Below, one piece after another: positions 14,345 to 31,886 of a DNA stretch of 35,003 nucleotides (position 1 is the stretch's first letter; every line of letters starts with the position of its first letter). The position numbers and the translations under genes are program-made. The DNA comes from a virus: positions 1-35,003 of the IMG/VR virus record IMGVR_UViG_3300021962_000330; one strand, 5' to 3'. A model generated the notes under the pieces. It did not search any database, was not told the DNA's origin, and saw only the letters and a list, made by a program, of their open reading frames with translations.

Positions 14345-14570
14345 TATATTTGGTTACATAGGTACTATATTAATACTGTATTCGTTTACAATAGAAAATA
14401 TATACAAACTACGGCTGATTAATTCAATTGGGTCTGTATTTTGGATTATATATGGTATTGGTATTATGGCTGGACCTACTATAATAGTTAATAGCTGTGT
14501 ATTGTGTATTCATTCATATTGGTTTATAAAAAATAGAAAAGGTATAAATGTTAAAAATAGAAAACCATAA
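14337..14570 (+). CDS. SemiSWEET/PQ-loop-like small membrane protein
   Basis: 77 residues with three transmembrane helices (about 4-19, 27-44, 46-66). The arrangement GYIGTILILYSF, then KLRLINSIGSVFWIIYG, then NSCVLCIHSYWF resembles half-transporters of the PQ-loop/SemiSWEET class and YgjV-like proteins. SemiSWEETs dimerise to move sugars. The transporter role is inference from fold pattern. It overlaps the first MLTIEN-family gene by 23 bases. Confidence 0.55.
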   Translation: MIDIFGYIGTILILYSFTIENIYKLRLINSIGSVFWIIYGIGIMAGPTIIVNSCVLCIHSYWFIKNRKGINVKNRKP

Positions 14571-14841
14571 AAAGTTATTAGGTAAAGAGCTGTATGGTAG
14601 TGGTAAATCGGGTTCCACTTATTGGAAAGTCGTATCTATTATGGAGCACTTAAATCATTATGTAATTTTTATAGAGCAACCAGATGTGGGATGGGAGCGT
14701 AAGGTAACACTACATAGGCATAGTCAAATGCAAACAATACCTAAATACAGATTAGAATGTGGGACAGAGTATATTCTATTAGTTACTGATAGTATTAAAC
14801 AAGTGGATGTATTTACTAATTACTTAGAATCCTTTTTATAA
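14548..14841 (+). CDS. MLTIEN-family small protein, copy 1 (97 aa)
   Basis: Begins MLKIENHKKLLGKELYGSGK. It matches the family plan: a short L-x-I-E-N start with K-L about 5 residues later, then a beta-rich middle with Trp (YWKVVSI), a core strand (HYVIFIEQP), and a C-terminal helix (IKQVDVFTNYLESFL). No cysteine pairs or enzyme motif. It overlaps the upstream membrane gene by 23 bases. Function unknown. Confidence 0.65.
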   Translation: MLKIENHKKLLGKELYGSGKSGSTYWKVVSIMEHLNHYVIFIEQPDVGWERKVTLHRHSQMQTIPKYRLECGTEYILLVTDSIKQVDVFTNYLESFL

Positions 14842-15165
14842 ATGAAAAAACAAAAAGCACAATTTCAAAAGATAGTAAAGGAATACAAAGATGCAACTCC
14901 ATTGGAAATTTGGGAGGGCTTTAGGGATAACTTCATATTTGGATTCTTAGGAGCAACATTGGTTGTATTCATAGCAACTAAAACTGATATAGCAGTATTG
15001 GTTGGATACTTAACATATTACTTTTTTATGGGTAAGATTGTGAACAGACCTAAGTATGTGACAGATTTGGGTAAAATGATTGTATTTCCAATTCCATCTG
15101 CATTGGGAGCATTTACAGGCTATAAACTATCCTATGTACTTTTAGAATTAATCAAATCAATATAA
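14842..15165 (+). CDS. Membrane protein, 107 aa
   Basis: A basic, Lys-rich N-terminal helix is followed by hydrophobic segments at about 30-45, 47-64 and 79-105 (FGFLGATLVVFIATKTD, then VLVGYLTYYFFMG). It begins directly after the stop of copy 1 and overlaps the next gene by one base. No family recognised. Confidence 0.6.
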   Translation: MKKQKAQFQKIVKEYKDATPLEIWEGFRDNFIFGFLGATLVVFIATKTDIAVLVGYLTYYFFMGKIVNRPKYVTDLGKMIVFPIPSALGAFTGYKLSYVLLELIKSI

Positions 15166-15635
15166 TGCCACATATACCAATACCACCAACATCCTTTCAA
15201 AGTAGGGGATTAACACAGCTAACAGGAAAAATAGTAGCAAATACGAATGGAGCTGTAAATATAGCACAACCGAATTCAAACATTGCTCAACAAATAAAGG
15301 ATATAGCAATTGAGCAGGCAAAACAAACGGTAATTGAATTAATGAAACAACAAACCGAATTAAAGAAAACGGTCTTAACGATTGAAAACATTGATAAGAT
15401 TAGAGGTGCAAAGTATAGTGAATGGCTTTCAGTTGGTGGTGTTAAAGAGTGGGACAACCATTATGAATTTACTTTATTGGACGAGAAGGGTTCGCAAGTT
15501 GAAACAATACTTTTACATAGAAAGCAGACATCAGATAAGAGGTATATAATGGAATACAATAATCACACACTTTGGGTAACTAAGGATAGGTTGGATACGA
15601 TTGATGCGATTATAGAATGTATGAAGGAAATATAA
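15165..15635 (+). CDS. MLTIEN-family protein with N-terminal extension, copy 2 (156 aa)
   Basis: Residues 1-70 are an extra Gln/Ala-rich region, probably helical (NIAQQIKDIAIEQAKQTVIE). The family domain starts at residue 70 (VLTIENIDKIRG) and runs to the end, with W.S and W pattern (EWLSVGGVKEW) and a closing helix LDTIDAIIECMKEI. The fused extension could mediate oligomerisation (inference). Confidence 0.65.
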   Translation: MPHIPIPPTSFQSRGLTQLTGKIVANTNGAVNIAQPNSNIAQQIKDIAIEQAKQTVIELMKQQTELKKTVLTIENIDKIRGAKYSEWLSVGGVKEWDNHYEFTLLDEKGSQVETILLHRKQTSDKRYIMEYNNHTLWVTKDRLDTIDAIIECMKEI

Positions 15636-15636
15636 T

Positions 15637-15939
15637 ATGCTCACAATAGAAAATATAAATAAGATTTGGAAACGTGACGTAGGTGAATGGCGTATTGGTA
15701 GAATAGAAACAAAAAATACAGCATACCTATTCCAATTATATATTCGTAATAGAAGGCATACAATACAAATCAATTTAGAAAGGACACCAATAGGTAGACA
15801 ATATGAATTATGGTGTTGGGATATGCAAGATAATGGACAACCTTTACCACATGCAACTCCATTAAGGCGGATGTTGGATATGACAGAATTAAAAACAATG
15901 GATGGCTTGGTAAATCAAATGACAAAATTATTATCGTAA
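15637..15939 (+). CDS. MLTIEN-family protein, copy 3 (100 aa)
   Basis: Begins MLTIENINKIWKRDVGEWRI, then AYLFQLYIRNRRHTIQINL, and ends with TELKTMDGLVNQMTKLL. This is close to the family average and a good query sequence. It starts 1 base after copy 2 and its TAA overlaps the ATG of copy 4. Confidence 0.7.
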   Translation: MLTIENINKIWKRDVGEWRIGRIETKNTAYLFQLYIRNRRHTIQINLERTPIGRQYELWCWDMQDNGQPLPHATPLRRMLDMTELKTMDGLVNQMTKLLS

Positions 15940-16262
15940 TGCTAACAATAGAAAACTTTACTAAATTAGTGGGTAAAACATTTGTAATGCCGGATTTTAC
16001 TCAATGGATTATATCCGAAGCAACTACTGATTTAAGTCCTGCTAGAAGGGATGCTAGGTATATAGTGAAAGTAAAAACACATGATGGTAGGGAGGTTACG
16101 TTTGCTTTATATAGGGATGTAACTAAAAAAGAGAAAGGGTATCGTATGTATAACAATGTACTTATGGATTATACGATTGTAAAGTTGGAATCGCTTGAGA
16201 ATATGACATCGTTTTTTTATGTACTAAAAACACAATTACAAACTTTTAATCAAACAATATGA
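15939..16262 (+). CDS. MLTIEN-family protein, copy 4 (107 aa)
   Basis: Begins MLTIENFTKLVGKTFVMPDF, followed by QWIISEATTD and a beta-rich core RYIVKVKTHDGREVTFALYR, ending in a helix (LESLENMTSFFYVLKTQL). The first 18 coding bases match those of copies 6 and 7 almost exactly. Overlaps the next gene by ATGA. Confidence 0.7.
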   Translation: MLTIENFTKLVGKTFVMPDFTQWIISEATTDLSPARRDARYIVKVKTHDGREVTFALYRDVTKKEKGYRMYNNVLMDYTIVKLESLENMTSFFYVLKTQLQTFNQTI

Positions 16263-16859: not shown

Positions 16860-16860
16860 T

Positions 16861-17040: not shown

Positions 17041-17385
17041 ATGTATATAGAGAATCCCGAAAAACTATTGAGTACACCTATCTTTGGTACGGATGGACAA
17101 TTGTGGATAGTATGTGAGTGTATTAGATTAGCCGTAGGTACGGATGGACCTACATACGAATTCAAATTAATAACGGATGTACCGGTTAAGAGTTCACCCA
17201 ATCAGGTTTATTATAGTATGACAAAAGCAAGAAAGGAGACCGTAGAATTGACGTTATATAGAGTTCAACATGAAGGTGTTTTTGAATTGGTATGTAATGG
17301 GGCAGTGGAGCGTGGATATACAAAGGATATAGATACAATGGATAAATTTGTTTATAGATTAAAAGAAATGCTACCTACATGCTAA
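17041..17385 (+). CDS. MLTIEN-family protein, copy 5 (114 aa)
   Basis: Begins MYIENPEKLLSTPIFG, a shortened version of the family start, then QLWIVCECIRL, a beta core (YEFKLITDVPV) and closing helix IDTMDKFVYRLKEML. More divergent than copies 3, 4 and 7. Overlaps copy 6 by 7 bases. Confidence 0.6.
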   Translation: MYIENPEKLLSTPIFGTDGQLWIVCECIRLAVGTDGPTYEFKLITDVPVKSSPNQVYYSMTKARKETVELTLYRVQHEGVFELVCNGAVERGYTKDIDTMDKFVYRLKEMLPTC

Positions 17386-17705
17386 CAATAGAAAATAGAG
17401 GGTATATAATAAGTGATTCGTTTTATGATAAAATGGGCATGTATTGGGTGGTGGATAAAATTATAGATAACACCGATGAATATCTAATCTTAATTGAAAA
17501 TAGAAAAGGCCCAAAAGAATTATTTAGTTTGAAAAAAGAAAACTTATATGAGCTTGGGTATCAATTGGGTTTATTGGATGATAATAGGCATATCAATAAG
17601 AATATGTTTAAGGTTAAAACATACATACCAATTGAAACTATAAGTGATAAAAAGTTATTGGTAATGAGAATGGCTGAAATGATTGATACCGCATACGATA
17701 TATAA
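17379..17705 (+). CDS. MLTIEN-family protein, copy 6 (108 aa)
   Basis: Begins MLTIENRGYIISDSFYDKMG then YWVVDKIIDNTDEYLILIEN. The start codons are encoded by the shared bases ATGCTAACAATAGAAAA. C-terminal helix SDKKLLVMRMAEMIDT fits the family. Overlaps the end of copy 5. Confidence 0.65.
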   Translation: MLTIENRGYIISDSFYDKMGMYWVVDKIIDNTDEYLILIENRKGPKELFSLKKENLYELGYQLGLLDDNRHINKNMFKVKTYIPIETISDKKLLVMRMAEMIDTAYDI

Positions 17706-17715: not shown

Positions 17716-18039
17716 ATGCTAACAATAGAAAACTTTCAAAGATTAAAGGGTAAGGTAATCGGAATAACGGGATACTATGTAGAATCAATAAAGCCCGTTG
17801 GACTATTAGATATGAATAGTACTAAGCAAGGGTATTTGTATATGATTGAATTAACGAATAGAAAGCAATCCCTTATGGTCCAATTGAATAGGGAATCGGA
17901 AATGGTGAATGGATTAAGGTTATACGAAATGACATTAGGAGCAAATTGTAAACAAACCATAACTAAGTACGAATTAAGGAATATGAATAAAGTAGTGGAC
18001 AAGCTAACTAAATTAGTATTAGAACAATATGTACCTTAA
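17716..18039 (+). CDS. MLTIEN-family protein, copy 7 (107 aa)
   Basis: ATG 17716 was chosen over an upstream ATG at 17683 because it gives the family start MLTIENFQRLKGKVIG with the shared DNA sequence. Core LYMIELTNRKQSLMVQLNRE and closing helix YELRNMNKVVDKLTKLVLEQ. Last member of the first cluster. Confidence 0.7.
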   Translation: MLTIENFQRLKGKVIGITGYYVESIKPVGLLDMNSTKQGYLYMIELTNRKQSLMVQLNRESEMVNGLRLYEMTLGANCKQTITKYELRNMNKVVDKLTKLVLEQYVP

Positions 18040-18192
18040 TCCTATATTCATTCAGTATTCTCTTATATATCGTATCGGTGAATCGGAAATCGGGTCGATG
18101 GGGAATTTTTTTTGATAGCATAATATATATAGTAGTAAACTAAAACAAGCTAACTCACAGCTATACCAGTGAGAAACATAAAATTAAAAACT
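18040..18192 (+). other. Intergenic stretch with small hairpin
   Basis: 153 bases, AT-rich toward the end. CTCAC (18154-18158) can pair with GTGAG (18169-18173) around a 10-base loop just before the next gene. A T-run near 18107 follows a G-rich stretch and might end the MLTIEN operon. No clear promoter of the common type. Confidence 0.35.
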
Positions 18193-18474
18193 ATGGCAAT
18201 AGATTTTTCAACACAAACAGACCAATGGTGGATTGATACTTTTGAAAGGTACATTACCGGAGGGAACGCATTTGGTACAATAGCCGAAGGTGGATGGGAT
18301 TCCATTAAAAAGCATTATGAGGCATGTATACCCGCAGGTGATTTTCCGGATAGGGAATTGGTGGATACCGGTAGGGAATGGATTATACGAGCTACACATC
18401 CCCGTGCAGGTAGGTTCAATTTAACGGTACAAAAGGGTGATAAAAGTTGGGCATTCGAATGGGAGGGAAACTAA
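18193..18474 (+). CDS. Hypothetical Trp-rich protein, 93 aa
   Basis: ATG 18193 (MAIDFSTQTDQWWIDTFERY) follows an A-rich leader and is preferred to ATG 18169, which lies in the hairpin stem. The product is rich in Trp and Gly. No motif recognised. First of five small + strand genes that lead to the origin-like region. Confidence 0.55.
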   Translation: MAIDFSTQTDQWWIDTFERYITGGNAFGTIAEGGWDSIKKHYEACIPAGDFPDRELVDTGREWIIRATHPRAGRFNLTVQKGDKSWAFEWEGN

Positions 18475-18495
18475 ACAATTTAAAATAAAATCAAA

Positions 18496-18717
18496 ATGAG
18501 CGATACATACAAACAATTAACAATAGAGGAAAAAGAATCGGCAATCCGTATGGGCATAGTACCCGCAGGTGGCAATAGAGGTACAATTATATCCGTAATT
18601 CAAAATGTGTTAGAAACGGGATTTGATTGGAGACAAGATGGGGAAATCTTAACAATCGAACACCCGAACGGAGTCATAACGGTAAGTGGATTAAATGTAC
18701 AATTCGTTTGGTCATAA
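18496..18717 (+). CDS. Hypothetical protein, 73 aa
   Basis: Begins MSDTYKQLTIEEKESAIRMG, with a helical first half and a beta-rich end (GEILTIEHPNGVITVSGLNV). Begins 21 bases after the previous stop. Function unknown. Confidence 0.55.
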   Translation: MSDTYKQLTIEEKESAIRMGIVPAGGNRGTIISVIQNVLETGFDWRQDGEILTIEHPNGVITVSGLNVQFVWS

Positions 18718-18782
18718 AAAGCCGGACACGAATTCTACTAATCCCAGTATAAGAAACTAAGGTAAATAAAAATCAGTAAGGA

Positions 18783-18932
18783 ATGTATAACGAATGGGGA
18801 ATAGGCATAGGAATGGTAGGGTATATAGTGTACATAGTATCCCTGAACTGGATGTATATAAGAGAATACACAAAGGGAGGGAACGTAATCCGTAGGGGAG
18901 GGGAATGGCCTGATGAGAATCCGCAAGAATAG
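18783..18932 (+). CDS. Small membrane protein, 49 aa
   Basis: ATG 18783 to TAG 18930-18932. One transmembrane segment (about residues 5-24, WGIGIGMVGYIVYIVSLNWM) then a basic tail. Longer reading frames on the other strand here are its shadows. Function unknown. Confidence 0.45.
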   Translation: MYNEWGIGIGMVGYIVYIVSLNWMYIREYTKGGNVIRRGGEWPDENPQE

Positions 18933-18953
18933 TATCCAATATAAGAGAATCCA

Positions 18954-19133
18954 ATGAGCAATATAGATAAGATAAGGAATCGAATCGAAGGTTTACAATC
19001 CCTTCTCCAAATGAGTATCCGAATAGGTGAACCCCAATATACAAGGAGTATAAGGAATACCATAACGGAATACGAAAGGGAACTCAAAATCTTAAACGTA
19101 CAACGAGCGCATATAAACGAAAACCAAGACTAA
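18954..19133 (+). CDS. Small coiled-coil protein, 59 aa
   Basis: ATG 18954 to TAA 19131-19133, beginning MSNIDKIRNRIEGLQSLLQM. Almost wholly helical and charged. Lies 21 bases after the previous gene and 3 before the next, in the same direction. Confidence 0.45.
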   Translation: MSNIDKIRNRIEGLQSLLQMSIRIGEPQYTRSIRNTITEYERELKILNVQRAHINENQD

Positions 19134-19136
19134 GGA

Positions 19137-19268
19137 ATGATAATCCTAAAAGAAAACGAAACCATAAGGAGGGGTAAGGTAGTACAAATCAAGCCGAAAC
19201 CACAAACGAATGCCAAAAAGAAAAAGAAAGTAGGTAAGGTATGGAGGCAGTATAAGAACCTGTTTTAG
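19137..19268 (+). CDS. Small Lys-rich protein, 43 aa
   Basis: ATG 19137 to TAG 19266-19268, with KPKPQTNAKKKKKVGKV in the middle. A strongly basic peptide that could bind nucleic acid. It is the last gene before the origin-like region. Confidence 0.4.
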   Translation: MIILKENETIRRGKVVQIKPKPQTNAKKKKKVGKVWRQYKNLF

Positions 19269-19389
19269 TATATAGTATAAGAGTATAACAAGCCATAAGA
19301 GTATAAGAGAATAACAAACGTATAAGAGTATAAAGAAACCAAAACAGCTTGTAAAATTGGCTGGGAATGTGGGCTTGAATAAGGTCCAC

Positions 19390-19970
19390 ATTTTTTATTT
19401 TGATACTGCCAAAACCTTAATTACAAAATCCGTCTATATATCAGGGTATATTGGTATGTTTATATTTTGATACTACAAAGGGATTCAAAACCGATGTGTG
19501 TCAGTTTTCCCACACCTTACCACTTTCACCCACTTTTTACCACAATGAAAATAAAATGGGTGTCAAATGATAGTGTAGTATATCACAATGTGACCCTATA
19601 CGGATTCATTGGCAGAGCGCAAAATTTCTTGGGGATTATTTTTACACACTAGCTCATTTTTTTTCCACAAGCTTATCCACATTTGTGATTCACATTTGTA
19701 TATTCGTTTAGGGGGTAAAGCTCTGATAACCAATAGCTTGTGCGTTACCGAAAAAGTTATCCACAATAGCTGTTTACAATTGTGAACGATTTAGGTGAGC
19801 TTGAAAAATTTAGGTTAGTCTAAATCTTATTTTTTAGGGTAGTCTAAACTATTGGTTATATACAACTTATGCTCCATAATATACAAGATAGCTGTTATAT
19901 AACTTGTATTATGTTAAATAGCGCTGTACTATTTCGGGACCGCATTGGATTAAAAAAGTTATCCACACCC
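19390..19970. other. Candidate replication origin: three perfect DnaA boxes in non-coding DNA
   Basis: About 580 AT-rich bases with no convincing gene. TTATCCACA occurs at 19673-19681, 19757-19765 and 19959-19967; the last two share the longer string AAAAAGTTATCCACA. A fourth box in reverse orientation is at 21281-21289. Other structure includes repeated TTACCAC/CACCCAC strings near 19505-19543, two AGTCTAAA copies near 19816 and 19843, and a dyad ATACAAG (19881-19887) with CTTGTAT (19903-19909). This fits a host-DnaA-dependent origin or a DnaA-titration site. No rep gene is adjacent. Confidence 0.55.
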
Positions 19971-19971
19971 C

Positions 19972-20003
19972 CTTGACTTTATGGAATTTTTTTTGTATCT
20001 TTA
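19972..20003 (+). promoter_or_regulatory. Promoter next to the origin-like region
   Basis: CTTG 19972-19975 and TATCTTTA 19996-20003. No gene follows directly; a G-rich non-coding transcript is expected. Confidence 0.55.
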
Positions 20004-20005
20004 TA

Positions 20006-20055
20006 GGGTGGTAGGGCGGGAGCAGAGGTGCGTAACCGAGCCTGTATCCCAGCTC
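20006..20055 (+). ncRNA. G-rich short RNA, copy A
   Basis: The first bases after the promoter (GGGTGGTAGGGCGGG) resemble those after the promoters at 20165 and 21175. GGT/ACC and GAGC/GCTC pairings can form a hairpin. No open frame with a credible product was found here. End point uncertain. Confidence 0.4.
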
Positions 20056-20163
20056 ATTGAAAAACTTCTAATGAATTGGGGATTTCTTTGTGAATTTCGT
20101 ATATCAAGACGATGGCGCATTAGAAATATGTTAATAAAATGGGGGAATTATTATGACGAAAAG

Positions 20164-20195
20164 CTTGGAATTCTCAGGAAATTGTTGTAACTTTA
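20164..20195 (+). promoter_or_regulatory. Promoter for G-rich RNA copy B
   Basis: CTTG 20164-20167, spacer containing TTCTCAGG, TAACTTTA 20188-20195. Same elements as the promoter at 21175. Confidence 0.55.
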
Positions 20196-20236
20196 GGGTG
20201 AGGAGGGCGGGGTATGCCTTCCTGCGTACAGGCCCG
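20196..20236 (+). ncRNA. G-rich short RNA, copy B
   Basis: Starts GGGTGAGGAGGGCGGGG. AGGAGGG pairs with CCTTCCT (7 pairs, one wobble) around a 9-base loop, then CCTG/CAGG forms a second small hairpin before a run of A. It lies just before the promoter of the HExxH gene. Confidence 0.45.
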
Positions 20237-20247
20237 ATAAAAAAAGA

Positions 20248-20279
20248 TTTGGATATGTGAGATTTTTTTCGTATATTTG
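20248..20279 (+). promoter_or_regulatory. Promoter, TTTG and TATATTTG
   Basis: TTTG 20248-20251, TTCG, TATATTTG 20272-20279. Drives the gene at 20301. Confidence 0.75.
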
Positions 20280-20300
20280 TATTACAATAAAAGTATATTT

Positions 20301-20654
20301 ATGAGAGTAACCAATAAACGTTTAGGTATGAAGTTCGATTGTGTCAAGCTTTTAAACTGGGCGGAGGAGCTCTTAGGGCCTTCGAAGTGTAAATCAATAG
20401 CATTTACTTGGGATTCGGAGGAGGAGTCTCTAGGTTGGTATAATTGGGATGAAACGATTTGGATTAATTTAGCATCCTGCAAACGAATGATTTCTGTCCA
20501 AAAGACTATACTGCATGAATGGACACATGCCCAGCAAACATTCCGCTGGTATAACCATTATCAAATGAAGTATGGATATAAGAACAACCCTTACGAAATC
20601 CAAGCACGAGATAACGAAAAGCTGGTTAAGCGAGCATATAAGAAAAGAAAATAA
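20301..20654 (+). CDS. Small HExxH zinc metallopeptidase-like protein
   Basis: ATG 20301 is the first start after the promoter. The 117-residue product has a zinc motif H72-E-W-T-H76 (ILHEWTHAQQ) and a third ligand E99 in NPYEIQARD, the HExxH...NPyEieA arrangement found in small SprT/gluzincin-like proteins of phages and viruses. It may cut proteins or be a DNA-linked protease; the substrate is unknown. It is followed by two small genes in the same operon. Confidence 0.75.
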   Translation: MRVTNKRLGMKFDCVKLLNWAEELLGPSKCKSIAFTWDSEEESLGWYNWDETIWINLASCKRMISVQKTILHEWTHAQQTFRWYNHYQMKYGYKNNPYEIQARDNEKLVKRAYKKRK

Positions 20655-20981
20655 ATGAGAGGTAAGAAAGTGGGCCCTGGGGAGCAAGTGGCTACGAATA
20701 GGGCAATGCATTGTAATATGCAACTATTCGAAAACGAAGCCGGTGAGTATTACCCTGTTGTGGAAAGGCTACCGCAACCTACGTTAGTAAGGGGTGAGTA
20801 CCATCCAATAGGGAATAAGTTTCAGTATCCTAAACAATGGGGTAGAAAATATGCAGCTAAGGTACTATTAGAGAATAAGATAGCTGTCCAACAGGATATA
20901 CTATACAGGGCTGAATTGGAATTGTCCAAGCTTCAGCGATGCTTAGATGGAATACAACAATGGTCAGATAGTGACGAATAA
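20655..20981 (+). CDS. Hypothetical protein, 108 aa
   Basis: ATG directly follows the metallopeptidase stop. A basic, Pro-containing N-terminal half and a helical C-terminus (LYRAELELSKLQRCLDGI). No motif recognised. Confidence 0.6.
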   Translation: MRGKKVGPGEQVATNRAMHCNMQLFENEAGEYYPVVERLPQPTLVRGEYHPIGNKFQYPKQWGRKYAAKVLLENKIAVQQDILYRAELELSKLQRCLDGIQQWSDSDE

Positions 20982-20990
20982 ACCACACAT

Positions 20991-21155
20991 ATGTCAGAAA
21001 GTGAAATGATTCAGCGAGCCACCTTATTAGGAATGGATGAGGAGCTCATATCGTATGCATTACATATCCAAAGGCAGTTAGGTTCAGAAGGGGATACAGC
21101 CGATTGGTTGGATTGCTTGGAGATGGCCTACAACGAATTGATAGTCAATCGATAA
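20991..21155 (+). CDS. Hypothetical acidic helical protein, 54 aa
   Basis: ATG 20991 to TAA 21153-21155, beginning MSESEMIQRATLLGMDEELI. Helical and acidic. It lies 9 bases after the previous gene. The next promoter follows 20 bases later. Confidence 0.5.
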   Translation: MSESEMIQRATLLGMDEELISYALHIQRQLGSEGDTADWLDCLEMAYNELIVNR

Positions 21156-21174
21156 AAAAATAATCGTTAAAAAG

Positions 21175-21206
21175 CTTGTAATTCTCAGGTATTTTTCGTA
21201 ACTTTA
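21175..21206 (+). promoter_or_regulatory. Promoter for G-rich RNA copy C
   Basis: CTTG 21175-21178, spacer with TCTCAGG, TTTTTCG, TAACTTTA 21199-21206. Followed at once by a perfect nested hairpin rather than a gene. Confidence 0.6.
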
Positions 21207-21242
21207 AGGGTGCGGAGGGCGGGTAGAGCGCCTCCTGACCCT
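21207..21242 (+). ncRNA. G-rich hairpin RNA, copy C
   Basis: AGGGT (21207-21211) pairs with ACCCT (21238-21242); inside, GGAGG (21214-21218) pairs with CCTCC (21231-21235), then CG pairs with CG around a 7-base loop with one bulged G. It begins at the expected transcription start. A similar GGGTGCGGAGGCGG string, without a clear -7 box, occurs near 23590. Confidence 0.5.
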
Positions 21243-24770: not shown

Positions 24771-25058
24771 ATGATTATTTCAGAATTGAATCTTACAGAG
24801 TTAGAATCTAAAGTACTTGAATCTTTTATTGGTGGCTTATACGCTGAGCCGGGCTTCTCCGATGTGGATGCCAACGATATAGCTAGTGACTTGGGTATAT
24901 CCACAAAAATCATTAGAGGTGCATTGGGTTCATTAGTTAAGAAAGAAATCGTATCGCTGGATGAGAATGATAGCGGATATGTTATTATCTACCTTAACAC
25001 AAAGTATTGGCCGTTAGTTAATGAGAATTGGGCTGAAGAAGCCAAAGGTTACCTATAA
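24771..25058 (+). CDS. Winged-helix-like protein, 95 aa
   Basis: ATG 24771 follows the C-rich linker; a longer in-frame extension upstream overlaps the membrane gene and is unlikely. The product has the pattern of a winged helix-turn-helix: DANDIASDLGISTKIIRGAL (about residues 39-58) as helix-turn-helix, then a beta wing (SGYVIIYLN). It may be a transcriptional regulator of the cassettes (inference). Confidence 0.6.
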   Translation: MIISELNLTELESKVLESFIGGLYAEPGFSDVDANDIASDLGISTKIIRGALGSLVKKEIVSLDENDSGYVIIYLNTKYWPLVNENWAEEAKGYL

Positions 25059-25074
25059 TCCCCTAAAAATAATT

Positions 25075-25096
25075 TTATTGAGAATCAATGAGTTAC
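25075..25096. repeat. Dyad element ATTGA-GAA-TCAAT with GAGTTAC
   Basis: Identical over 22 bases to the element at 24452. Lies after the winged-helix gene and upstream of the next promoter. Confidence 0.6.
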
Positions 25097-25127
25097 GGGC
25101 TAGGGTCCAAAAATAAATGGGTAAACC

Positions 25128-25159
25128 CTTGTTTATATCCCGTATTATTCGTATGTTTA
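25128..25159 (+). promoter_or_regulatory. Cassette promoter, TTG and TATGTTTA
   Basis: CTTG 25128-25131, TTCG, TATGTTTA 25152-25159, then CTATGTAATAAAAG. Drives 25184. Confidence 0.75.
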
Positions 25160-25183
25160 CTATGTAATAAAAGATAAGATAAT

Positions 25184-25450
25184 ATGAATAGTGTTGAAAC
25201 CCTCAAAGAAGCAATCACCGGTGTTAAGTTCACCCCAGCCCAAAAAGCCGTAGTATCTAAGTTGTTGGATGGCTGGATTATCGTAGTAGTTAATAGACAC
25301 TACCTCAATGGTGGTGAATATATGTGGAGGACTCCTTATTCGGAAAACCTACAACACGCCGGTAAAGTATATAAGGCCTTTTGGAATGTGTTTTATGAAA
25401 TCAAACGCCAGAAAGGTATCAAAGTAGAAACTAATTTATTTATTGTTTAA
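25184..25450 (+). CDS. Hypothetical protein, 88 aa
   Basis: Begins MNSVETLKEAITGVKFTPAQ; mixed alpha/beta with aromatic residues (HLYK and FWNVFY). First gene of its cassette. Function unknown. Confidence 0.6.
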   Translation: MNSVETLKEAITGVKFTPAQKAVVSKLLDGWIIVVVNRHYLNGGEYMWRTPYSENLQHAGKVYKAFWNVFYEIKRQKGIKVETNLFIV

Positions 25451-25460
25451 ACCCCTTAAT
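25449..25460 (+). promoter_or_regulatory. C-rich linker between stop and start
   Basis: AAACCCCTTAAT, overlapping the end of the TAA stop and ending at ATG 25461. Confidence 0.55.
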
Positions 25461-25685
25461 ATGAGAATAGACTCAGATACCCTAGTCCTTATACGCTCCG
25501 AGTTTGGTGAGTTCGATGTATCACAAGTCATTGGAGGCTCAAACGCTATATACCTTCGATTTGGTTATTGGAGGCGAGTAAATGCCCGAAAGCTTCAAGA
25601 CCTGATAGGTTCACATGCGGAGGTAGTGGAGGACGATATAGATGATGATGACTGTGGGACCCTATATTCCTACAAACTAATTTAA
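25461..25685 (+). CDS. Hypothetical protein with acidic C-terminus, 74 aa
   Basis: ATG 25461 after the linker. Beta-rich start, then HAEVVEDDIDDDDCGTL near the end. Second gene of its cassette. Confidence 0.6.
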   Translation: MRIDSDTLVLIRSEFGEFDVSQVIGGSNAIYLRFGYWRRVNARKLQDLIGSHAEVVEDDIDDDDCGTLYSYKLI

Positions 25686-25693
25686 AAATAATT

Positions 25694-25715
25694 TTATTGA
25701 GTATCAACGAGTTAA
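25694..25715. repeat. Dyad element TTGA-GTA-TCAA with GAGTTA
   Basis: Variant of the elements at 24452 and 25075. It lies about 30 bases upstream of the next -33 box. Confidence 0.55.
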
Positions 25716-25745
25716 GCCTCGAGCTCAAAAATAATTGATAAAACC

Positions 25746-25777
25746 CTTGTTTTACTCGGGTTTTATTCGTATGTTTA
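25746..25777 (+). promoter_or_regulatory. Cassette promoter with ACTCGGG spacer
   Basis: CTTG 25746-25749, ACTCGGG, TTCG, TATGTTTA 25770-25777, then CTATGTAATAAAACG. Drives 25801. Confidence 0.75.
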
Positions 25778-25800
25778 CTATGTAATAAAACGATAAAGAT

Positions 25801-26055
25801 ATGAGTTATTTAAGATTCGACCGCCATCAGACCTTCAATAGTGAAATGATGGACTACCATTCAGATACCCTTAGAGCGGTAGAGGACTTCTATATGGACC
25901 AGAATAAGAGTTGGTTCAATGAGGTGTACAATATGTTATGTGGTATATGGGATGGTTACCTATATACTGACCTTTTGGAATCAGCTAAACAGCTAGGGCT
26001 TCCAACACATATCACCAACCGTATCGAATACACAATCAATTTCATTCAAAAATAA
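25801..26055 (+). CDS. Hypothetical protein, 84 aa
   Basis: Begins MSYLRFDRHQTFNSEMMDYH; helical and aromatic. First gene of its cassette. No motif. Confidence 0.6.
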   Translation: MSYLRFDRHQTFNSEMMDYHSDTLRAVEDFYMDQNKSWFNEVYNMLCGIWDGYLYTDLLESAKQLGLPTHITNRIEYTINFIQK

Positions 26056-26067
26056 ACCCCTTATACT
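26056..26067 (+). promoter_or_regulatory. C-rich linker between stop and start
   Basis: ACCCCTTATACT fills exactly the 12 bases between TAA 26053-26055 and ATG 26068; the best example of the consensus. Confidence 0.6.
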
Positions 26068-26604
26068 ATGAGTAACTTAAAAGTATCTATTGGTGGTACT
26101 ATCTACCAAATCAATGAAAAAGCTTTCCGTAATACCGGTTACAATAAAGAGCCTATTACCCCTTACTTCTATGTATCCCATGCGGCGGCTGGACAGCTAG
26201 TTAAACAATTCGTTAAAAAGAACTATCCGAATGTGGAGTGTAGAGTATCCTCTAGCTCATTCGCTGGTGGTAACTCGCTGGATGTGCATGTGTGTAACCC
26301 CGATGGGACACCTATTCCAAACGCACAGTTCGAAGCTATAAATAATTTCGCTAATCTATTTGAGTATGGTAGATATGATGGTATGCATGATATATACGAA
26401 TCATACGAAAACTCTGGACTACGGACTGATAATGGTACGGAGTTAAAGGCTGGTGTGAAGTATGTGAGAACGGAGAATAGACCGGCATGGGGCACCCCTC
26501 AATACGTCCTGAATGGGATTCGTAATGGTGAGTGTACTTGGGAGAGTATAGCCCGATACATAACCCCTAAAGTGTTGGAGCAGGCTAGAGCCCTGGCAGC
26601 TTAA
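26068..26604 (+). CDS. LPD29-domain protein, 178 aa
   Basis: Residues about 36-110 match the pattern of the large polyvalent protein-associated domain LPD29: AAAGQLVKQFVKKNYPNVEC, SSSSFAGGNSLDVHV and YGRYDGMHDIYE. LPD domains occur in mobile-element and phage proteins; their function is not settled. The C-terminal region is Trp/Arg-rich. Second gene of its cassette. Followed by 450 bases without a gene. Confidence 0.72.
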   Translation: MSNLKVSIGGTIYQINEKAFRNTGYNKEPITPYFYVSHAAAGQLVKQFVKKNYPNVECRVSSSSFAGGNSLDVHVCNPDGTPIPNAQFEAINNFANLFEYGRYDGMHDIYESYENSGLRTDNGTELKAGVKYVRTENRPAWGTPQYVLNGIRNGECTWESIARYITPKVLEQARALAA

Positions 26605-26953
26605 TCCCTCTTTTGGGTTTTTGGTGTATTTCGGTCTACCTACCTTCGAGGGGCAGGGGGGGACTGAATTACTTGGAACTCTGCGAATATTGCTTTCGCA
26701 AGACCCACGCCTAACCCTTTCACGTATGGAGCAAGACTTTTTCGGGTATAGGGTTTTTATAGGGTAAAGGTGACCTTAGGGTATCTTTCCTTATAGGTGT
26801 ATATCAATTTAGCTGGATTCCTTTTAGGTAGGTTTAGACCCCCTTATTTTAACCCCTTTTAGGACCGGATGGGTATTTGGATGGCTGGATGATTTGAGGG
26901 GCTTAAAACGGAAATAAACCCTATAATATGTAAAATGTTGAAAACCAATGGTT
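26605..26953 (+). other. Non-coding stretch, possibly a decayed cassette
   Basis: No credible gene. It contains a hairpin TGCGAA/TTCGCA near 26682-26700, several decayed copies of AACCCCTTTT, and near 26915-26933 the string TAAACCCTATAATATGTAA, where the C-rich linker is followed by ATG and at once by TAA. This looks like a cassette whose second gene is missing. Confidence 0.45.
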
Positions 26954-26976
26954 TATAACTCGTTGATACTCAATAA
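26954..26976. repeat. Dyad element in inverted orientation
   Basis: TAACTCGTTGATACTCAATAAAG is the reverse complement of the element at 25694 (TTGAGTATCAACGAGTTA). Its inversion shows that the element can function or move in either direction. Confidence 0.55.
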
Positions 26977-27003
26977 AGAATTTTGAAAAAAAATGCCTAA
27001 AAG

Positions 27004-27035
27004 CTTGTTTATATGGGGAATTATTCGTAGTTTTA
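27004..27035 (+). promoter_or_regulatory. Cassette promoter, TTG and TAGTTTTA
   Basis: CTTG 27004-27007, TTCG, TAGTTTTA 27028-27035, then CTATGTAACAAAAA. Drives 27058. Confidence 0.7.
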
Positions 27036-27057
27036 CTATGTAACAAAAATTAAGATT

Positions 27058-27402
27058 ATGGTATATGTTGATTCTTTCTTCCCTTCTCAATCAGAATGGG
27101 ATATGTTTATGGACAGGGTACATAGTGTATCCCACTTTGTTAAACCTATTGATATATGGGTGGATGAAGTTACTAAGGTATCCTCTATTGATTATGATGA
27201 GGTGTACACATTCGTAACTATTAAAAATGGTGAGTTCGGAGAATCTAAGCGCTTCTTCCTTCGTAGTTGGGAAATCAATCCTAACCATGCTAATCCACAT
27301 ACAAAGTATTATATCGATGATTTGTATTCGATGGATTCGCTTAAACCTACACTTAGAAAGGATAGGACAAACATTATTAAGTTCATTCAAAATAGTATAT
27401 AA
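27058..27402 (+). CDS. Hypothetical protein, 114 aa
   Basis: Begins MVYVDSFFPSQSEWDMFMDR; beta-rich and aromatic. First gene of the last cassette run (27.0-28.7 kb). Function unknown. Confidence 0.6.
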   Translation: MVYVDSFFPSQSEWDMFMDRVHSVSHFVKPIDIWVDEVTKVSSIDYDEVYTFVTIKNGEFGESKRFFLRSWEINPNHANPHTKYYIDDLYSMDSLKPTLRKDRTNIIKFIQNSI

Positions 27403-27419
27403 AATATAAAACGTAAAAT

Positions 27420-27986
27420 ATGAAAAACAATGTAAATGGTGGTGGTGGTTCAAATCCTTACTTAGATGGATTAAAAGCTAAGGTAGAGGCGGATAAGGCC
27501 GTTTCCCTATTGAGTGGATACTTCAAAGGTAAGGTTATCCAATTGGGTAAGAAACAATTGTATAAGGTGAATACCCCTAGCCCTTTCTTCGTACTAATTA
27601 CTTCTGCTCCATCTAATCTTAAATTGGATAAGGTGGTTAAGGGATTGATGAAGGAGCATGGTTCATTGCCCTTCTATATTATCTTCACCCGTACGTTGGC
27701 GGATTATCCAACCAACCCAAAGACAGTTCAAGCGTATTATTCTAAGTTGAGAATTATCAATAAGAGTAAAGGTAAGTTTAAGGGCTCTATTATTGGTATA
27801 GAGGAATTAACAACCCAATTGGCATCTATGAGAAAGGGAGAAAGAATTCCGTTGACTATAGATAGAGTTAAAGATGCTCCATCCGTATTGGGATTGGATT
27901 CATACATTAAGGAGAAATTCGGATTAACCCCTAAGACAACTAAATCTATTATTCAGGCTATTAAGAATCATTATAACATTATATAA
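27420..27986 (+). CDS. Hypothetical basic protein, 188 aa
   Basis: A Gly-rich start (NNVNGGGGSNPYLDG), then a mixed alpha/beta domain and a Lys-rich C-terminus (TPKTTKSIIQAIKNHY). The pattern FFVLITSAPSNLKLDKV resembles no family I know. It lies 17 bases after the previous gene. Confidence 0.6.
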   Translation: MKNNVNGGGGSNPYLDGLKAKVEADKAVSLLSGYFKGKVIQLGKKQLYKVNTPSPFFVLITSAPSNLKLDKVVKGLMKEHGSLPFYIIFTRTLADYPTNPKTVQAYYSKLRIINKSKGKFKGSIIGIEELTTQLASMRKGERIPLTIDRVKDAPSVLGLDSYIKEKFGLTPKTTKSIIQAIKNHYNII

Positions 27987-28004
27987 CAAATAAAAATTCA
28001 GATT

Positions 28005-28244
28005 ATGAAAAGTTTTAAAATCAGAGAAGGTATCGTACATATTGATGGAGTACTATACGGACAAACCCCTACGGAACTAAAGGTTAAGGGAAAGGCAGGT
28101 AACATCCATTCTATTAACATTCCATCTAAAGGCCAATTCTTTCCTATCGGCGGAGAGTTCATCGATTCAACCCTAAAGGTAACGGATGATTCTACCGGCA
28201 TTATGGAAGATACAAAAGGGAAACGTAAATCAAAATCTAAGTAA
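28005..28244 (+). CDS. Small beta-rich protein with Lys-rich tail, 79 aa
   Basis: Beta-rich core (HIDGVLYGQTPTELKVKG) and a basic end (DTKGKRKSKSK). It might bind nucleic acid; no domain recognised. 3 bases before the next gene. Confidence 0.55.
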   Translation: MKSFKIREGIVHIDGVLYGQTPTELKVKGKAGNIHSINIPSKGQFFPIGGEFIDSTLKVTDDSTGIMEDTKGKRKSKSK

Positions 28245-28247
28245 CCT

Positions 28248-28478
28248 ATGTTTGTTGTATTATTAACTACGTTCGCATTCCTATTGAATACCGCTGGTGC
28301 ATTAGGGATTCATGCCTTAGTAGATGATAGCGTAAGGGAGAGGTATCTAAATAGTGTATGGGTTAAGGTCCTACTCCTTATTCCGCCTGTATCTATTGTA
28401 CTTGCATTTATTACCTTATCCTATGGTGTGCTATTTTTAATATACTTAGCACTTTCAAATTATTTTTCAAACAATTAA
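28248..28478 (+). CDS. Small membrane protein, 76 aa
   Basis: Two transmembrane segments (about 2-20 and 37-70). Its stop merges into the C-rich linker ACCCCTATACT before the next gene. Confidence 0.6.
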   Translation: MFVVLLTTFAFLLNTAGALGIHALVDDSVRERYLNSVWVKVLLLIPPVSIVLAFITLSYGVLFLIYLALSNYFSNN

Positions 28479-28489
28479 ACCCCTATACT
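28479..28489 (+). promoter_or_regulatory. C-rich linker between stop and start
   Basis: ACCCCTATACT fills the space between TAA 28476-28478 and ATG 28490. Confidence 0.55.
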
Positions 28490-28732
28490 ATGAGTAGATA
28501 TAACTATTTTAACGATGTCCAAGCTTATGAGGCTTTGGAAGAAAAACGGGCTAAGATTCAAATGGACCCAGCTTATCAACAATGGGTTCAAGAGCTGAGG
28601 ATTTCGCAATCGTATGTAGAGCCGGAAGGTGCTATCAGAGCGAAGCTCCTCAATGAACAATATGATTTTTCTAGCAAAACGACTAAATCACCAATTTTGA
28701 ATTTCTTAAAGCTGAAAGGATTATGGAGTTAA
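28490..28732 (+). CDS. Hypothetical helical protein, 80 aa
   Basis: Begins MSRYNYFNDVQAYEALEEKR; helical and charged. Overlaps the next gene by 10 bases. Function unknown. Confidence 0.6.
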   Translation: MSRYNYFNDVQAYEALEEKRAKIQMDPAYQQWVQELRISQSYVEPEGAIRAKLLNEQYDFSSKTTKSPILNFLKLKGLWS

Positions 28733-29100
28733 TCATTGAAGGTTTACATAAGTTGATATTGAAAACCTTTTCGGGTAGAAAGATAAGCGATATAACTGTA
28801 AAGAATAGGACTAGAAAATCTATTCCTCAAGATACTGCTTATGTATTTACTATTAAAGAGTTACCTAAACCGCATCAATTTAAAATCAATGGTATGGGTA
28901 AGAGTTGGGAAAGTGAGCATGAGGTGTGGTTGAGTAAGTTTCCGAATGCGTATGGTAAGTATGAGATGTTCGTAATGGGATTGCATGGTGTGACTTGTTA
29001 TGAGATGGAATTATTTGATGTTAAAAGCTTAGAGGCTTTTAGTTTAGTAATGAATGTAGTATTGGAAAGATGTAAAGAGTATTGGGTAAGTTTAAAGTAA
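28723..29100 (+). CDS. Possible divergent MLTIEN-family protein, 125 aa
   Basis: Begins MELIIEGLHKLILKTF, similar in shape to the family start, then a beta-rich middle and a closing helix VKSLEAFSLVMNVVLERCKE. The match is weaker than for the other members, so membership is tentative. It opens the second cluster. Confidence 0.5.
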   Translation: MELIIEGLHKLILKTFSGRKISDITVKNRTRKSIPQDTAYVFTIKELPKPHQFKINGMGKSWESEHEVWLSKFPNAYGKYEMFVMGLHGVTCYEMELFDVKSLEAFSLVMNVVLERCKEYWVSLK

Positions 29101-29229: not shown

Positions 29230-29553
29230 ATGAAACGATTAAACATTGAAAACTTTACGCTTATTAACCGAAAGGATACTGCTAACTTTACTATATTCAA
29301 TCCCGAAGTAAAGGAGGATAGTTATGAGTTCCTATTTAAATTTAGAGATGGTAGGACTTCTGATGTAGGTGAAGTGGTTATTCAAAGAAATGAATCCCTA
29401 TACAATCCAAACACATTTTATTTGGATGTACGTTGGAAAGAGCGTACTAACTCCATCTATTCCGAAAATGTGATATATGAGGTATTCGGAAAGAAAGTAC
29501 AATTTTTTGAAAAGTTGGATGAGATAATATTAGGAAAATTAAAGCATATATAA
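29230..29553 (+). CDS. MLTIEN-family protein, copy 8 (107 aa)
   Basis: Begins MKRLNIENFTLINRKDTANF, then YEFLFKFRDGRTSDVGEVVI and a closing helix KVQFFEKLDEIILGKL. Its stop overlaps the start of copy 9 (TAATG). Confidence 0.65.
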   Translation: MKRLNIENFTLINRKDTANFTIFNPEVKEDSYEFLFKFRDGRTSDVGEVVIQRNESLYNPNTFYLDVRWKERTNSIYSENVIYEVFGKKVQFFEKLDEIILGKLKHI

Positions 29554-30182
29554 TGTTACAATTAGAAAACATACATAAATTAGATGGTAAATTAATTGGT
29601 GATTGGAAATGCTACTATGTTGGAGAAGAAGGTGAGTACTATCGTATCTTTTTTGATTCAATGACTACTACTGATATAAGAGCTGAATTCCGTTTATACA
29701 AAGAGGACCAGATAAAGGGATTATGGACATTAAGTGGAAAGTTGGATAATAAAGCTAACGTAGTGTCCGCATTACAAACCAATCCTATTAGAGATGTTCA
29801 AGCTCTTTCAATAGATGAATTAAGAACACCTGATATGTTTTGTGCGGCATTGGGTAGAAGCCTTTTCCAATTCAATGAAATGTTAAGGGTGGGTATTCCT
29901 ACACAATGGATACCAAAAACATATAACACATCATCATTGGCTAGAAGGATTAACGGAGGAGGACATTCTTTTGGCGGACATCAAATCCCCAAACCTCCAC
30001 CTATATCAGCACCTCAATGGTATGTTAAGGAAGAAGAAGTTAATATGCCTACAATGTGGGAAACTTTTAAAGAGATGGTTAAGTGGGATAAATGGATTAA
30101 CATTCTATTCCCTATGAAACAAGCGATAGAGCAAGTTATACCTAAAAAGAAAAAGATAACCGCTAAAAAAGCAGCGTACTAA
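29553..30182 (+). CDS. MLTIEN-family protein with C-terminal extension, copy 9 (209 aa)
   Basis: Family domain in residues 1-110 (MLQLENIHKLDGKLIGDWKC, closing at TPDMFCAALGRSLFQF), then an added region with Gly/His/Pro-rich linker (NGGGHSFGGHQIPKPPP) and a Lys-rich end (PKKKKITAKKAAY). The extension suggests a tether to nucleic acid or membrane (inference). Confidence 0.7.
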   Translation: MLQLENIHKLDGKLIGDWKCYYVGEEGEYYRIFFDSMTTTDIRAEFRLYKEDQIKGLWTLSGKLDNKANVVSALQTNPIRDVQALSIDELRTPDMFCAALGRSLFQFNEMLRVGIPTQWIPKTYNTSSLARRINGGGHSFGGHQIPKPPPISAPQWYVKEEEVNMPTMWETFKEMVKWDKWINILFPMKQAIEQVIPKKKKITAKKAAY

Positions 30183-30184
30183 TT

Positions 30185-30493
30185 ATGAGATTAGATATAA
30201 AAAATATACATAAGTTAGTAGATTCGGAATACCATAAGAGTAGATTCGTATGTACTAATGCGATAGAAACGGAAACCAACTATCGATTTCAATTTCACGA
30301 TACCCATTATGCTACATCAAGATACGTTTGGATTGAGGTTAGTAGAATCGGCCATCGGAATCTAATCGAAGATAAATGGGAGTATCGATTAAACTACCCA
30401 AACCACCCAATACATTCCGTAACTGCCGATTGGTTAGGGTTTCCACCTAATGCAGTAAAATTAATGGAAGATTGCTTACACTATTCACTATGA
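30185..30493 (+). CDS. MLTIEN-family protein, copy 10 (102 aa)
   Basis: Begins MRLDIKNIHKLVDSEYHKSR, then NYRFQFHDTHYATSRYVWIE and a C-terminal helix. Overlaps copy 11 by ATGA (30490-30493). Confidence 0.6.
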   Translation: MRLDIKNIHKLVDSEYHKSRFVCTNAIETETNYRFQFHDTHYATSRYVWIEVSRIGHRNLIEDKWEYRLNYPNHPIHSVTADWLGFPPNAVKLMEDCLHYSL

Positions 30494-30987
30494 GTATAAT
30501 GAGAACAAAAGGACAAGGAAACTTAGTTGTAAATAAAAATAGATTTTCTGGCAAAGCTATTATAACCTCCACTCCAATTAGCGCTGGGAGCTGGATGGCT
30601 AACTACTATCAACCAAATCAAACCCAAAAAAATCTTAACATCGACCCGAATCGGAAGTTGGTGATACAAAACTATGCTAAAGACTTAGGTAGTGGTGTAT
30701 TTTGGGGTTGGGATATTATCTCTGCGGATGAAACCGATGAATACTATTTATTTCAATTAAGCCATAGACAGGATTCAAAGTTAAGGGTTTATATTACGTT
30801 GGGTAGAGAATTACAAGTTTCGAATTTAGAGAACAACCTATATCAGATGTATCAATGTTATATGCATGATGATTTAGGAGAATGGAATGAAACGATTTGG
30901 TTTGATTCGACTAATTTAAATCATCCACTATTTTGGGGAAGGGTAGAAACGATTGTAGATAAACATCATCCACTATTACCATTTTAA
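30490..30987 (+). CDS. MLTIEN-family protein with N-terminal extension, copy 11 (165 aa)
   Basis: ATG 30490 overlaps the previous stop. The first 60 residues are Asn/Ser/Gln-rich (GQGNLVVNKNRFSGKA, similar to the start of the protein at 16259). The family domain follows: KLVIQNYAKDLGSGVFWGWD, EYYLFQLSHRQDSKLRVYI, closely parallel to copy 3. Confidence 0.65.
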   Translation: MSIMRTKGQGNLVVNKNRFSGKAIITSTPISAGSWMANYYQPNQTQKNLNIDPNRKLVIQNYAKDLGSGVFWGWDIISADETDEYYLFQLSHRQDSKLRVYITLGRELQVSNLENNLYQMYQCYMHDDLGEWNETIWFDSTNLNHPLFWGRVETIVDKHHPLLPF

Positions 30988-30991
30988 TATT

Positions 30992-31597
30992 ATGAATATG
31001 AACGAAAATCAAATAATGGATTGGTTGAAGTTAAATAAACCAGATGTTTATTATTTAGCTCTATCATCAACCAATTTAGTAAAAAACGGAAATGTAAGAG
31101 ACTTAGGTAAATTGTATGCCGAAGCAAATGAATATATCCAAATAGATTGGATTAATGAAAATACAAATATACAAGTTATAAAAAGAGATGAGTTTGATAA
31201 TAGTGTTACTGCCGATGGGTGGGATATAATTACATCTGATGGTTTGTTAAAGATTCAATCAAAGTTACGATTTGGTGGACTTCATATAGAACAAACACGA
31301 AGGAATACAACAAACAATACTCTTAATAATAGAGCAAACTCTGGATATATTAGATATGCTATTGGTGAGGCTGATGTTTATTTGTTTAGTAAACCAAAAT
31401 CGTTAGAACAATATACTGATATTAAAAATTGGGATATTATAGCCATACCAGAACAAGAACTTATTGATTCAAAATGTCCTGGCTTTTTATATAAAAGTGT
31501 TCCTAAAAAGATATGGACTAAATGGATTGGTAAAGCTAAAGATGTATTGGAACAAACTTATAACCTTAAACAAAATGCTAACAATAGAGAATTATAA
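30992..31597 (+). CDS. Possible PD-(D/E)XK-type nuclease, 201 aa
   Basis: Residues 75-92 (DGWDIITSDGLLKIQSKL) fit the core of PD-(D/E)XK nucleases: D78, then a strand with Q89-x-K91 as the (D/E)xK variant, followed by R121 and D128 in GYIRYAIGEADVYLFSK. The fold fits restriction-enzyme or resolvase-like nucleases. This is motif-level inference. The 3' end overlaps copy 12 by 23 bases. Confidence 0.45.
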   Translation: MNMNENQIMDWLKLNKPDVYYLALSSTNLVKNGNVRDLGKLYAEANEYIQIDWINENTNIQVIKRDEFDNSVTADGWDIITSDGLLKIQSKLRFGGLHIEQTRRNTTNNTLNNRANSGYIRYAIGEADVYLFSKPKSLEQYTDIKNWDIIAIPEQELIDSKCPGFLYKSVPKKIWTKWIGKAKDVLEQTYNLKQNANNREL

Positions 31598-31886
31598 GAA
31601 GATAAAGAATCGTTGGTTTGGAGATTGGCAGATTGGAAAGATTTTGGAAGAAAAATCTTTTTACGCATTGCAATGTTTTCATTCAAGTGGAAAACGTAGT
31701 ATTACAATAGTTATATTTAGAGATGAAACAATCGATACAGAATTCAACGAAACTGCATATAAAATATCTTTATTAGAAGATAGTAAAGGAATTAGTGATG
31801 CTATTGAAGATATTATTTATAAAGCAGTTTTAGAAGATATGGAATTATTCGGAGAATCATTAGTACATTATTTAAATACATTATAA
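31575..31886 (+). CDS. MLTIEN-family protein, copy 12 (103 aa)
   Basis: ATG 31575 gives MLTIENYKKIKNRWFGDWQI; the DNA at the start again reads ATGCTAACAATAGA. An upstream start in the same frame would overlap the nuclease-like gene completely. Core FYALQCFHSSGKRSITIVIF. Overlaps the end of the previous gene. Confidence 0.7.
   Translation: MLTIENYKKIKNRWFGDWQIGKILEEKSFYALQCFHSSGKRSITIVIFRDETIDTEFNETAYKISLLEDSKGISDAIEDIIYKAVLEDMELFGESLVHYLNTL

Follow-up and report, generated by a model that had tools for sequence, protein, structure and literature searches.

A previously undescribed, anciently expanded family of small proteins with one predicted fold in a clade of large T4-like phages

In phage T4, the internal protein IPI* inhibits a restriction enzyme and has a compact structure of sheet plus helix (PMC3012670). 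Anti-defence genes of the dmd-tifA type in T-even phages are small and their products bind host factors, and amplification of tifA generates recent tandem copies (PMC9391042). In archaeal viruses, anti-defence genes have reportedly been recognised through a shared regulatory sequence (PMC11065993). Here, we describe a family of small proteins, many of which begin with a sequence like MLTIEN, encoded in the IMG/VR record IMGVR_UViG_3300021962_000330, a linear virus contig of 35 kb (35,003 nucleotides; hereafter, the window). The family is previously undescribed: it has at least 185 members, lies outside the family and structure libraries searched and has no detectable fold relative, and it makes up 14 genes of this 35-kb fragment. 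Our preferred reading, to which we assign a probability of roughly 0.42, is that the members may be early-expressed single-domain binding proteins, lineage-specific to T4-like phages whose hosts are most likely Bacteroidota, with each copy having its own target.

An earlier note, made from the letters of the window alone, listed twelve such genes and, with a "perhaps", a thirteenth at 28723. All of the listed genes were open frames at the positions given. Pairwise similarity among the window copies was weak, and the 13 candidates were assessed with leave-one-out profiles, each compared with 138 other window frames and 500 shuffled sequences. Over the whole domain, 12 of the 13 copies ranked first (E from 2.7e-10 to 8e-4), and the copy at 28723 was not significant from the window copies alone (E = 0.36). 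After deletion of the first ten residues, 11 of the 13 still ranked first (17379 and 28723 failed), so the similarity extends beyond the MLTIEN start. When relatives were added to the profile, 28723 was recovered with an E-value of 9e-16, which places it in the family, and a fourteenth copy at 6150–6512, which had recurred as the best decoy in most leave-one-out tests, was recovered with an E-value of 5e-6. The earlier note had thus understated a family that it described correctly. An iterative search yielded 198 members in 17 related viral contigs plus an overlapping contig (G001); with G001 excluded, the count is 185, including one truncated duplicate frame of contig G003. Among reversed frames used as decoys, none scored better than E = 0.028 with the wide profile. 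The 14 window copies share one common ancestry. An LTIEN..KL string inside a membrane protein at 14337 (Imp-YgjV-like) was dismissed as chance, with a family score of E = 1.1.

Two members were modelled with AlphaFold2. Model 1 (31575; 53-row alignment) had a mean predicted local distance difference test score (pLDDT) of 89.1 and a predicted template modelling score of 0.80, with a helix at residues 7–10, strands at 18–25, 29–36, 42–54, 59–68 and 77–82, and helices at 83–87 and 89–102; its first six residues are not part of the modelled sheet. Model 2 (15165; core pLDDT about 94) was built from its 15 orthologs only and is therefore largely independent evidence; it had a helix at 76–79, strands at 89–95, 99–105, 111–118, 127–131 and 134–138, and helices at 140–143 and 146–155. 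Both models consist of a short helix, five antiparallel strands and a C-terminal helix, the agreement being in the order of these elements, so that no unrelated folds appeared and the beta-rich core with a closing helix described in the earlier note was predicted in both. On these models, one common fold is predicted across the family.

The most conserved segment of the family is the N-terminal motif. In the numbering of 31575, the conserved columns are I4 (94%), N6 (82%; G in 13%), Y30 (96%), R/K49 (96%), an aromatic residue at 62 (about 96%) and F92 (70%), and position 18 is W, Y or F in 76%. I4, Y30, aromatic 62 and F92 are core positions, and N/G6 is a probable helix cap. The hydrophobic core is conserved and the exposed strand positions are variable and carry little information. 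No residue set suggestive of catalysis was found among the conserved columns. Over 185 cores, the mean net charge was −0.1 and the median pI was 7.05, and acidic DNA mimicry was not supported because the cores lack the strong negative charge that it implies.

Searches of Pfam, PHROGs and PADLOC gave no family matched by more than 2 of 53 members, even at an E-value of 0.5, and single-sequence Pfam and PHROGs searches and member-by-member scans gave scattered sub-threshold matches only. No significant match was obtained with a sequence profile against PDB (best E = 1.4), in a BFVD fold search with model 1, or with Foldseek against PDB. In the Foldseek search, the FP domain of Fbxo7/PI31 was the top-ranked solved fold for 31575 (E = 0.15), and the Csm1 C-terminal domain was top-ranked for 15165 (E = 0.09) and ranked lower for 31575; the template modelling scores of these two were 0.20–0.39, and we claim no membership in either. 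Similarly, there was no match in INPHARED phages (tblastn of three copies), in two huge phages, immuto, Mel-JY01 and RM378 (profile search), in prokaryote genomes scanned with the most widespread group (15165), or in the literature for the strings MLTIEN and MLTIKN.

Related phages carry from 1 to about 25 family copies, mostly arranged as two clusters on either side of a region rich in promoters, and the expansion noticed in the window is real. Clustering at 35% identity divides the 185 members into 93 groups. Within one phage, identity is 47% for the closest paralog pair and at most about 40% for the others, nearly all of them below 40%, which agrees with the far-diverged sequences that the earlier note had seen, and recent duplicates are almost absent. 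Because the paralogs within a phage are so diverged, either the duplication is old or the copies were drawn from a shared pool; we regard the expansion as old on this sequence evidence, not as an ongoing burst. Ortholog groups and gene order are preserved across phages. Family orthologs in the window and G003 are 28–72% identical, with a median of 52%; for the other frames, some of which are shadow frames, the median is 67%. Between G003 and a further contig, G004, the median nonsynonymous/synonymous ratio, a simple count on mechanical gene calls from metagenomic contigs, was 0.24 for the family and 0.13 for other genes (Mann–Whitney p = 0.03), and one pair reached 1.19. The family is thus under slightly relaxed purifying selection rather than in a burst of diversification. 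This slight relaxation would suit clusters made up mostly of decaying duplicates without individual function, but the frames are intact throughout, the ratios are well below 1, and ortholog proteins have stayed unchanged despite silent changes (two pairs with a nonsynonymous divergence of 0 and a synonymous divergence of about 0.06), so that we consider such decay very improbable.

Extensions at the N-terminus (15165 and 30490) or C-terminus (29553), such as the earlier note had mentioned for some copies, belong to five tail types that are conserved between phages and confined to family members. Three are N-terminal: that of 15165, in which residues 1–36 are Pro-rich and disordered and a long helix follows at 38–68, a second type, and that of 30490, which is common to the G003, G004, G005 and G008 orthologs. 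Two are C-terminal: that of 29553, common to the G003 and G008 orthologs only, and a type with an end that we read as coiled-coil-like. One tail carrier (G021, 125333) is just under the family inclusion threshold. The group of 15165 is the most widespread (22 IMG/VR loci), and 17379 has the most conserved ortholog (73%). The features of the window are listed in Table 1.

Table 1. Family copies, early-type promoter motifs nearest to the clusters and the inter-cluster region in the window
Feature	Coordinates	Strand	Remarks
Divergent fourteenth family copy	6150..6512	+	outside the clusters; overlooked in the earlier note; E 5e-6; orthologs in G003 and G004
Early-type (Bacteroidota-like) promoter motif	10244..10275	+	closest to cluster 1 on its upstream side, at a distance of more than 4 kb
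Family copy, cluster 1	14548..14841	+	leave-one-out E 2.7e-10; orthologs 51–53% in G003/G004
Family copy, N-terminal extension	15165..15635	+	domain from about 15372; ranks first (leave-one-out)
Family copy, cluster 1	15637..15939	+	leave-one-out E 1.6e-8; orthologs in 7 phages
Family copy, cluster 1	15939..16262	+	leave-one-out E 1.8e-10
Family copy, cluster 1	17041..17385	+	leave-one-out E 3.5e-4; orthologs 53–54%
Family copy, cluster 1	17379..17705	+	leave-one-out E 8e-4; wide profile E 2.5e-13
Family copy, last of cluster 1	17716..18039	+	leave-one-out E 5.3e-8
Inter-cluster region	18040..28722		many early-type promoters, small genes, DnaA-box-like sites
Early-type promoter motif	27005..27035	+	closest to cluster 2 on its upstream side
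Family copy, first of cluster 2	28723..29100	+	wide profile E 9e-16; orthologs in 4 other phages
Family copy, cluster 2	29230..29553	+	leave-one-out E 6.4e-5
Family copy, C-terminal extension (about 95 residues, conserved)	29553..30182	+	leave-one-out E 5e-6
Family copy, cluster 2	30185..30493	+	leave-one-out E 1.1e-6
Family copy, N-terminal extension	30490..30987	+	domain from about 30658; leave-one-out E 5e-4
Family copy, last of cluster 2	31575..31886	+	leave-one-out E 6e-10; AlphaFold2-modelled

Among the related contigs, G001 (39.9 kb) overlaps the window and is nearly identical to it, and G002 (164 kb), G003 (89.5 kb) and G004 (274 kb) have a large part of the window gene content in common. 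No structural genes were recognised in the window; it is assigned to a large T4-like phage because the related G004 carries a T4-type terminase, portal, major head protein and tail sheath together with a DnaB helicase. What the earlier note called a mobile element is, from this gene content, a clade of large T4-like phages with relatives of up to 274 kb. Among named isolates, the closest capsid was that of Flavobacterium phage immuto, followed by Microcystis phage Mel-JY01 and Rhodothermus phage RM378. The promoter pattern TTG...TAnnTTTG resembles, in our reading, the promoters of Bacteroidota, and the hosts are most likely members of this phylum. Upstream of cluster 1 (9293–13900) are genes for band-7/SPFH, NlpC/P60, GroES and cyclophilin proteins, and at least 80 IMG/VR loci contain a relative of the band-7 gene. 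At the right end of the window (34445–35002, minus strand) is the terminal part of a TonB-dependent receptor-like outer-membrane protein. A host junction was rejected as the explanation, since relatives hold the complete gene inside a phage contig: in the T4-like phage contig G004 (28719–32009, plus strand), it encodes 1,086 amino acids, including the plug and barrel domains, and runs against the direction of nearly all other genes.

The two-cluster layout of the family genes recurs in four related contigs (G003 and G004, with clusters about 9 kb apart, and G005 and G008), confirming this part of the original description. An early-type promoter motif, TTCGTATNTTTR, was found 21 times in the window with one mismatch allowed, versus 3.75 expected. 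In G004, it occurs only at 17–171 kb, with none in the structural half, and on the coding strand, which is also the cluster strand, except for two copies near the receptor gene. In G000, G003 and G004, both clusters have it as their closest upstream motif, as does cluster 2 in G005 and G008. Because the nearest motifs in the window end at 10275 and 27035, we infer rather than observe that the clusters belong to the corresponding operons. A second motif in G004 (2651–268311), ATATTTATA, is enriched ahead of structural genes, has 34 occurrences on the coding strand versus 2 on the other, and is a candidate late promoter; a shorter form, ATATTTAT, precedes 16 of 26 structural genes versus 14/82 in the comparison. 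The late-type motif is absent from the family clusters. Judging from these motifs, the family genes may be expressed early.

These motifs also bear on the possibility that the family comprises internal head proteins that enter the cell together with the DNA, as in T-even phages, MLTIE(N) being a capsid-targeting signal at which the head protease cuts. Cleavage by the T4 head protease needs Glu at the end of the targeting peptide. In the present family, only about 35% of the groups have Glu there (30% have Lys and 13% Gln), and 24 of 72 groups carry the motif at an internal position; a capsid-targeting signal is thus not supported. The phage group is the same, a short conserved N-terminus likewise stands on diverse small proteins, and the T4 set consists of diverse defence proteins sharing only a targeting sequence (PMC3012670); however, in this family the whole fold is conserved beyond any tag, the clusters are far from the head genes, and the promoters upstream are of the early type with no late-type motif in the clusters, a point based on motifs only. 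We consider this origin improbable.

The inter-cluster region contains further elements, and its early-type promoters are also found between the clusters of G003, G004, G005 and G008. DnaA-box-like sites (TTATCCACA; 5 in the window versus 0.62 expected) cluster in mostly non-coding sequence at 19673–21289, and also in G008 at 16782–17017, and may mark a replication origin. Short GC-rich elements, starting roughly with GGG(A/T)GnGGAGGGCGGG, lie directly behind early-type promoters and are conserved between phages (window, about 20004, 20196 and 21207; G003, 42517; G004, 47444; G005, 108100; G008, 17062 and 17265). Hairpins were present in some of them, inconsistently, and there was no Rfam match; these elements are possible small RNAs. 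A short repeat, TAAACCCCTTAtACTATGA, overlaps start codons at gene junctions between the clusters (24174, 24756, 25448, 26053 and 28475).

Several starts had been reported to share the bases ATGCTAACAATAGA, and this sharing proved to be real and to exceed codon bias. The start codons of the family have a nucleotide-level signature, ATGCTA (the ATGCTAACAATAGAAAAC start). Leu2 is encoded by CTA in 22 of 40 independent groups in which the motif begins the gene, but in 2 of 19 groups in which it is internal (Fisher p = 0.0015); for comparison, CTA encodes Leu2 in 6 of 29 non-family genes and 10% of Leu generally near gene starts. These groups may share deep ancestry, which qualifies the counts. 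Ile4 is ATA in 37 of 47, and the AAC bias of Asn6 (26 of 47) was not significant versus internal motifs (p = 0.17). The bases upstream of the start gave nothing comparable apart from a preference for T at −4. Recent gene conversion is an unlikely source of the shared bases, because the paralogs are diverged elsewhere and the internal motifs lack the signature. In Bacteroidota, which have no Shine–Dalgarno sequences, initiation is tuned by bases that precede the start codon (PMC6847099); this leaves the coding-side CTA unexplained. As a lead, one possibility is that the signature is the site of a translational regulator. The fuller picture, in which a library of binders with a new fold, up to about 25 ancient copies per genome with different host targets, would be placed under one regulator by a common start-proximal RNA signal, AUGCUAACAAUA, seems doubtful to us.

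If the members are indeed binding proteins, the rigid sheet-plus-helix scaffold common to all copies would, early in infection, engage a host (or phage) protein that differs from copy to copy, leading to host takeover or a block of host defences, and the Pro-rich/helical or C-terminal tails may add localisation or oligomerisation. A binder is favoured over an enzyme or a DNA mimic because there is no catalytic signature and the charge is near neutral, and the early-type promoters also agree with binding. Inhibitors of host defences, immunity proteins and adaptors, the roles named in the earlier note, are possible functions. The T4 internal proteins, a diverse injected set that includes the restriction-enzyme binder IPI*, offer a precedent in the same phage group (PMC3012670). 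Several observations weigh against binding proteins aimed at host targets. PADLOC gave no defence link for family members. The family was present in 13 of the 43 records reached via the neighbouring band-7 gene, and the other 30 seem to be without it at the sensitivity of the search, many of these being fragments, in which absence is weak proof. Gene loss and gain between G003 and G004 was not raised (family, 4/25; others, 15/122; p = 0.74), and change among orthologs is spread over exposed positions and loops, with no single hypervariable patch. The absence of a hypervariable face and the unraised turnover are weaker signals than an arms race would predict. The diversifying pressure suggested in the earlier note therefore stands in a weak sense only, in that the paralogs differ strongly and the orthologs diverge somewhat faster; the low substitution ratios, the turnover and the lack of a single hypervariable patch do not bear it out.

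Alternatively, the paralogs may be non-identical subunits of one hetero-oligomeric phage structure, such as a shell, a membrane-associated scaffold or an adaptor complex, in which the N-terminal LTIEN segment and the core edges would mediate assembly and the tailed copies would serve as anchors. The preserved ortholog identity and gene order, the purifying constraint, the near absence of recent duplicates and the restriction of the conserved tails to the family all fit such an assembly, as does the conservation of an N-terminal motif that begins outside the modelled sheet. The range of copy numbers among relatives is, however, awkward for a fixed complex, and the charges and surfaces of the copies are very different; we regard this structure as unlikely, and yet as the strongest of the competing explanations. 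Proteins for immunity, superinfection exclusion or antitoxin function, directed against competing phages or host toxins, would also be small, clustered and present in many distinct versions, and the presence or absence of copies does differ between close relatives. However, no toxin-like partner genes were recognised, and the Pfam, PHROGs and PADLOC scans gave no match to immunity or antitoxin families, which makes this explanation distinctly unlikely, if slightly less so than injection with the DNA.

We return to single-domain binding proteins, with which the family looks like a set of different tools on one scaffold, a function suggested by sequence. Should the copies indeed be binders with specific targets, every ortholog group would lead to a host factor of Bacteroidota, a phylum for which little is known of phage counter-defence. 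Because the ortholog groups are clean, the genes short and the promoters of the early type, the function can be tested directly, gene by gene. The family resembles IPI*, IPII and IPIII of T4 in comprising several small, highly diverse proteins of a T4-type phage with a short conserved N-terminus. In contrast to the T4 internal proteins, its fold is conserved, it reaches about 25 copies, its N-terminal Glu is not conserved, its motif can be internal, and the promoters upstream are of the early type. With the dmd-tifA type genes, it has in common small proteins and local changes in copy number in an accessory region; unlike those of tifA, its duplicates are ancient, and nearly all are less than 40% identical within a phage. 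Finally, as in the anti-defence genes reported for archaeal viruses, diverse genes have a common nucleotide signal, but in the family described here the common bases are part of the coding sequence, at its start.

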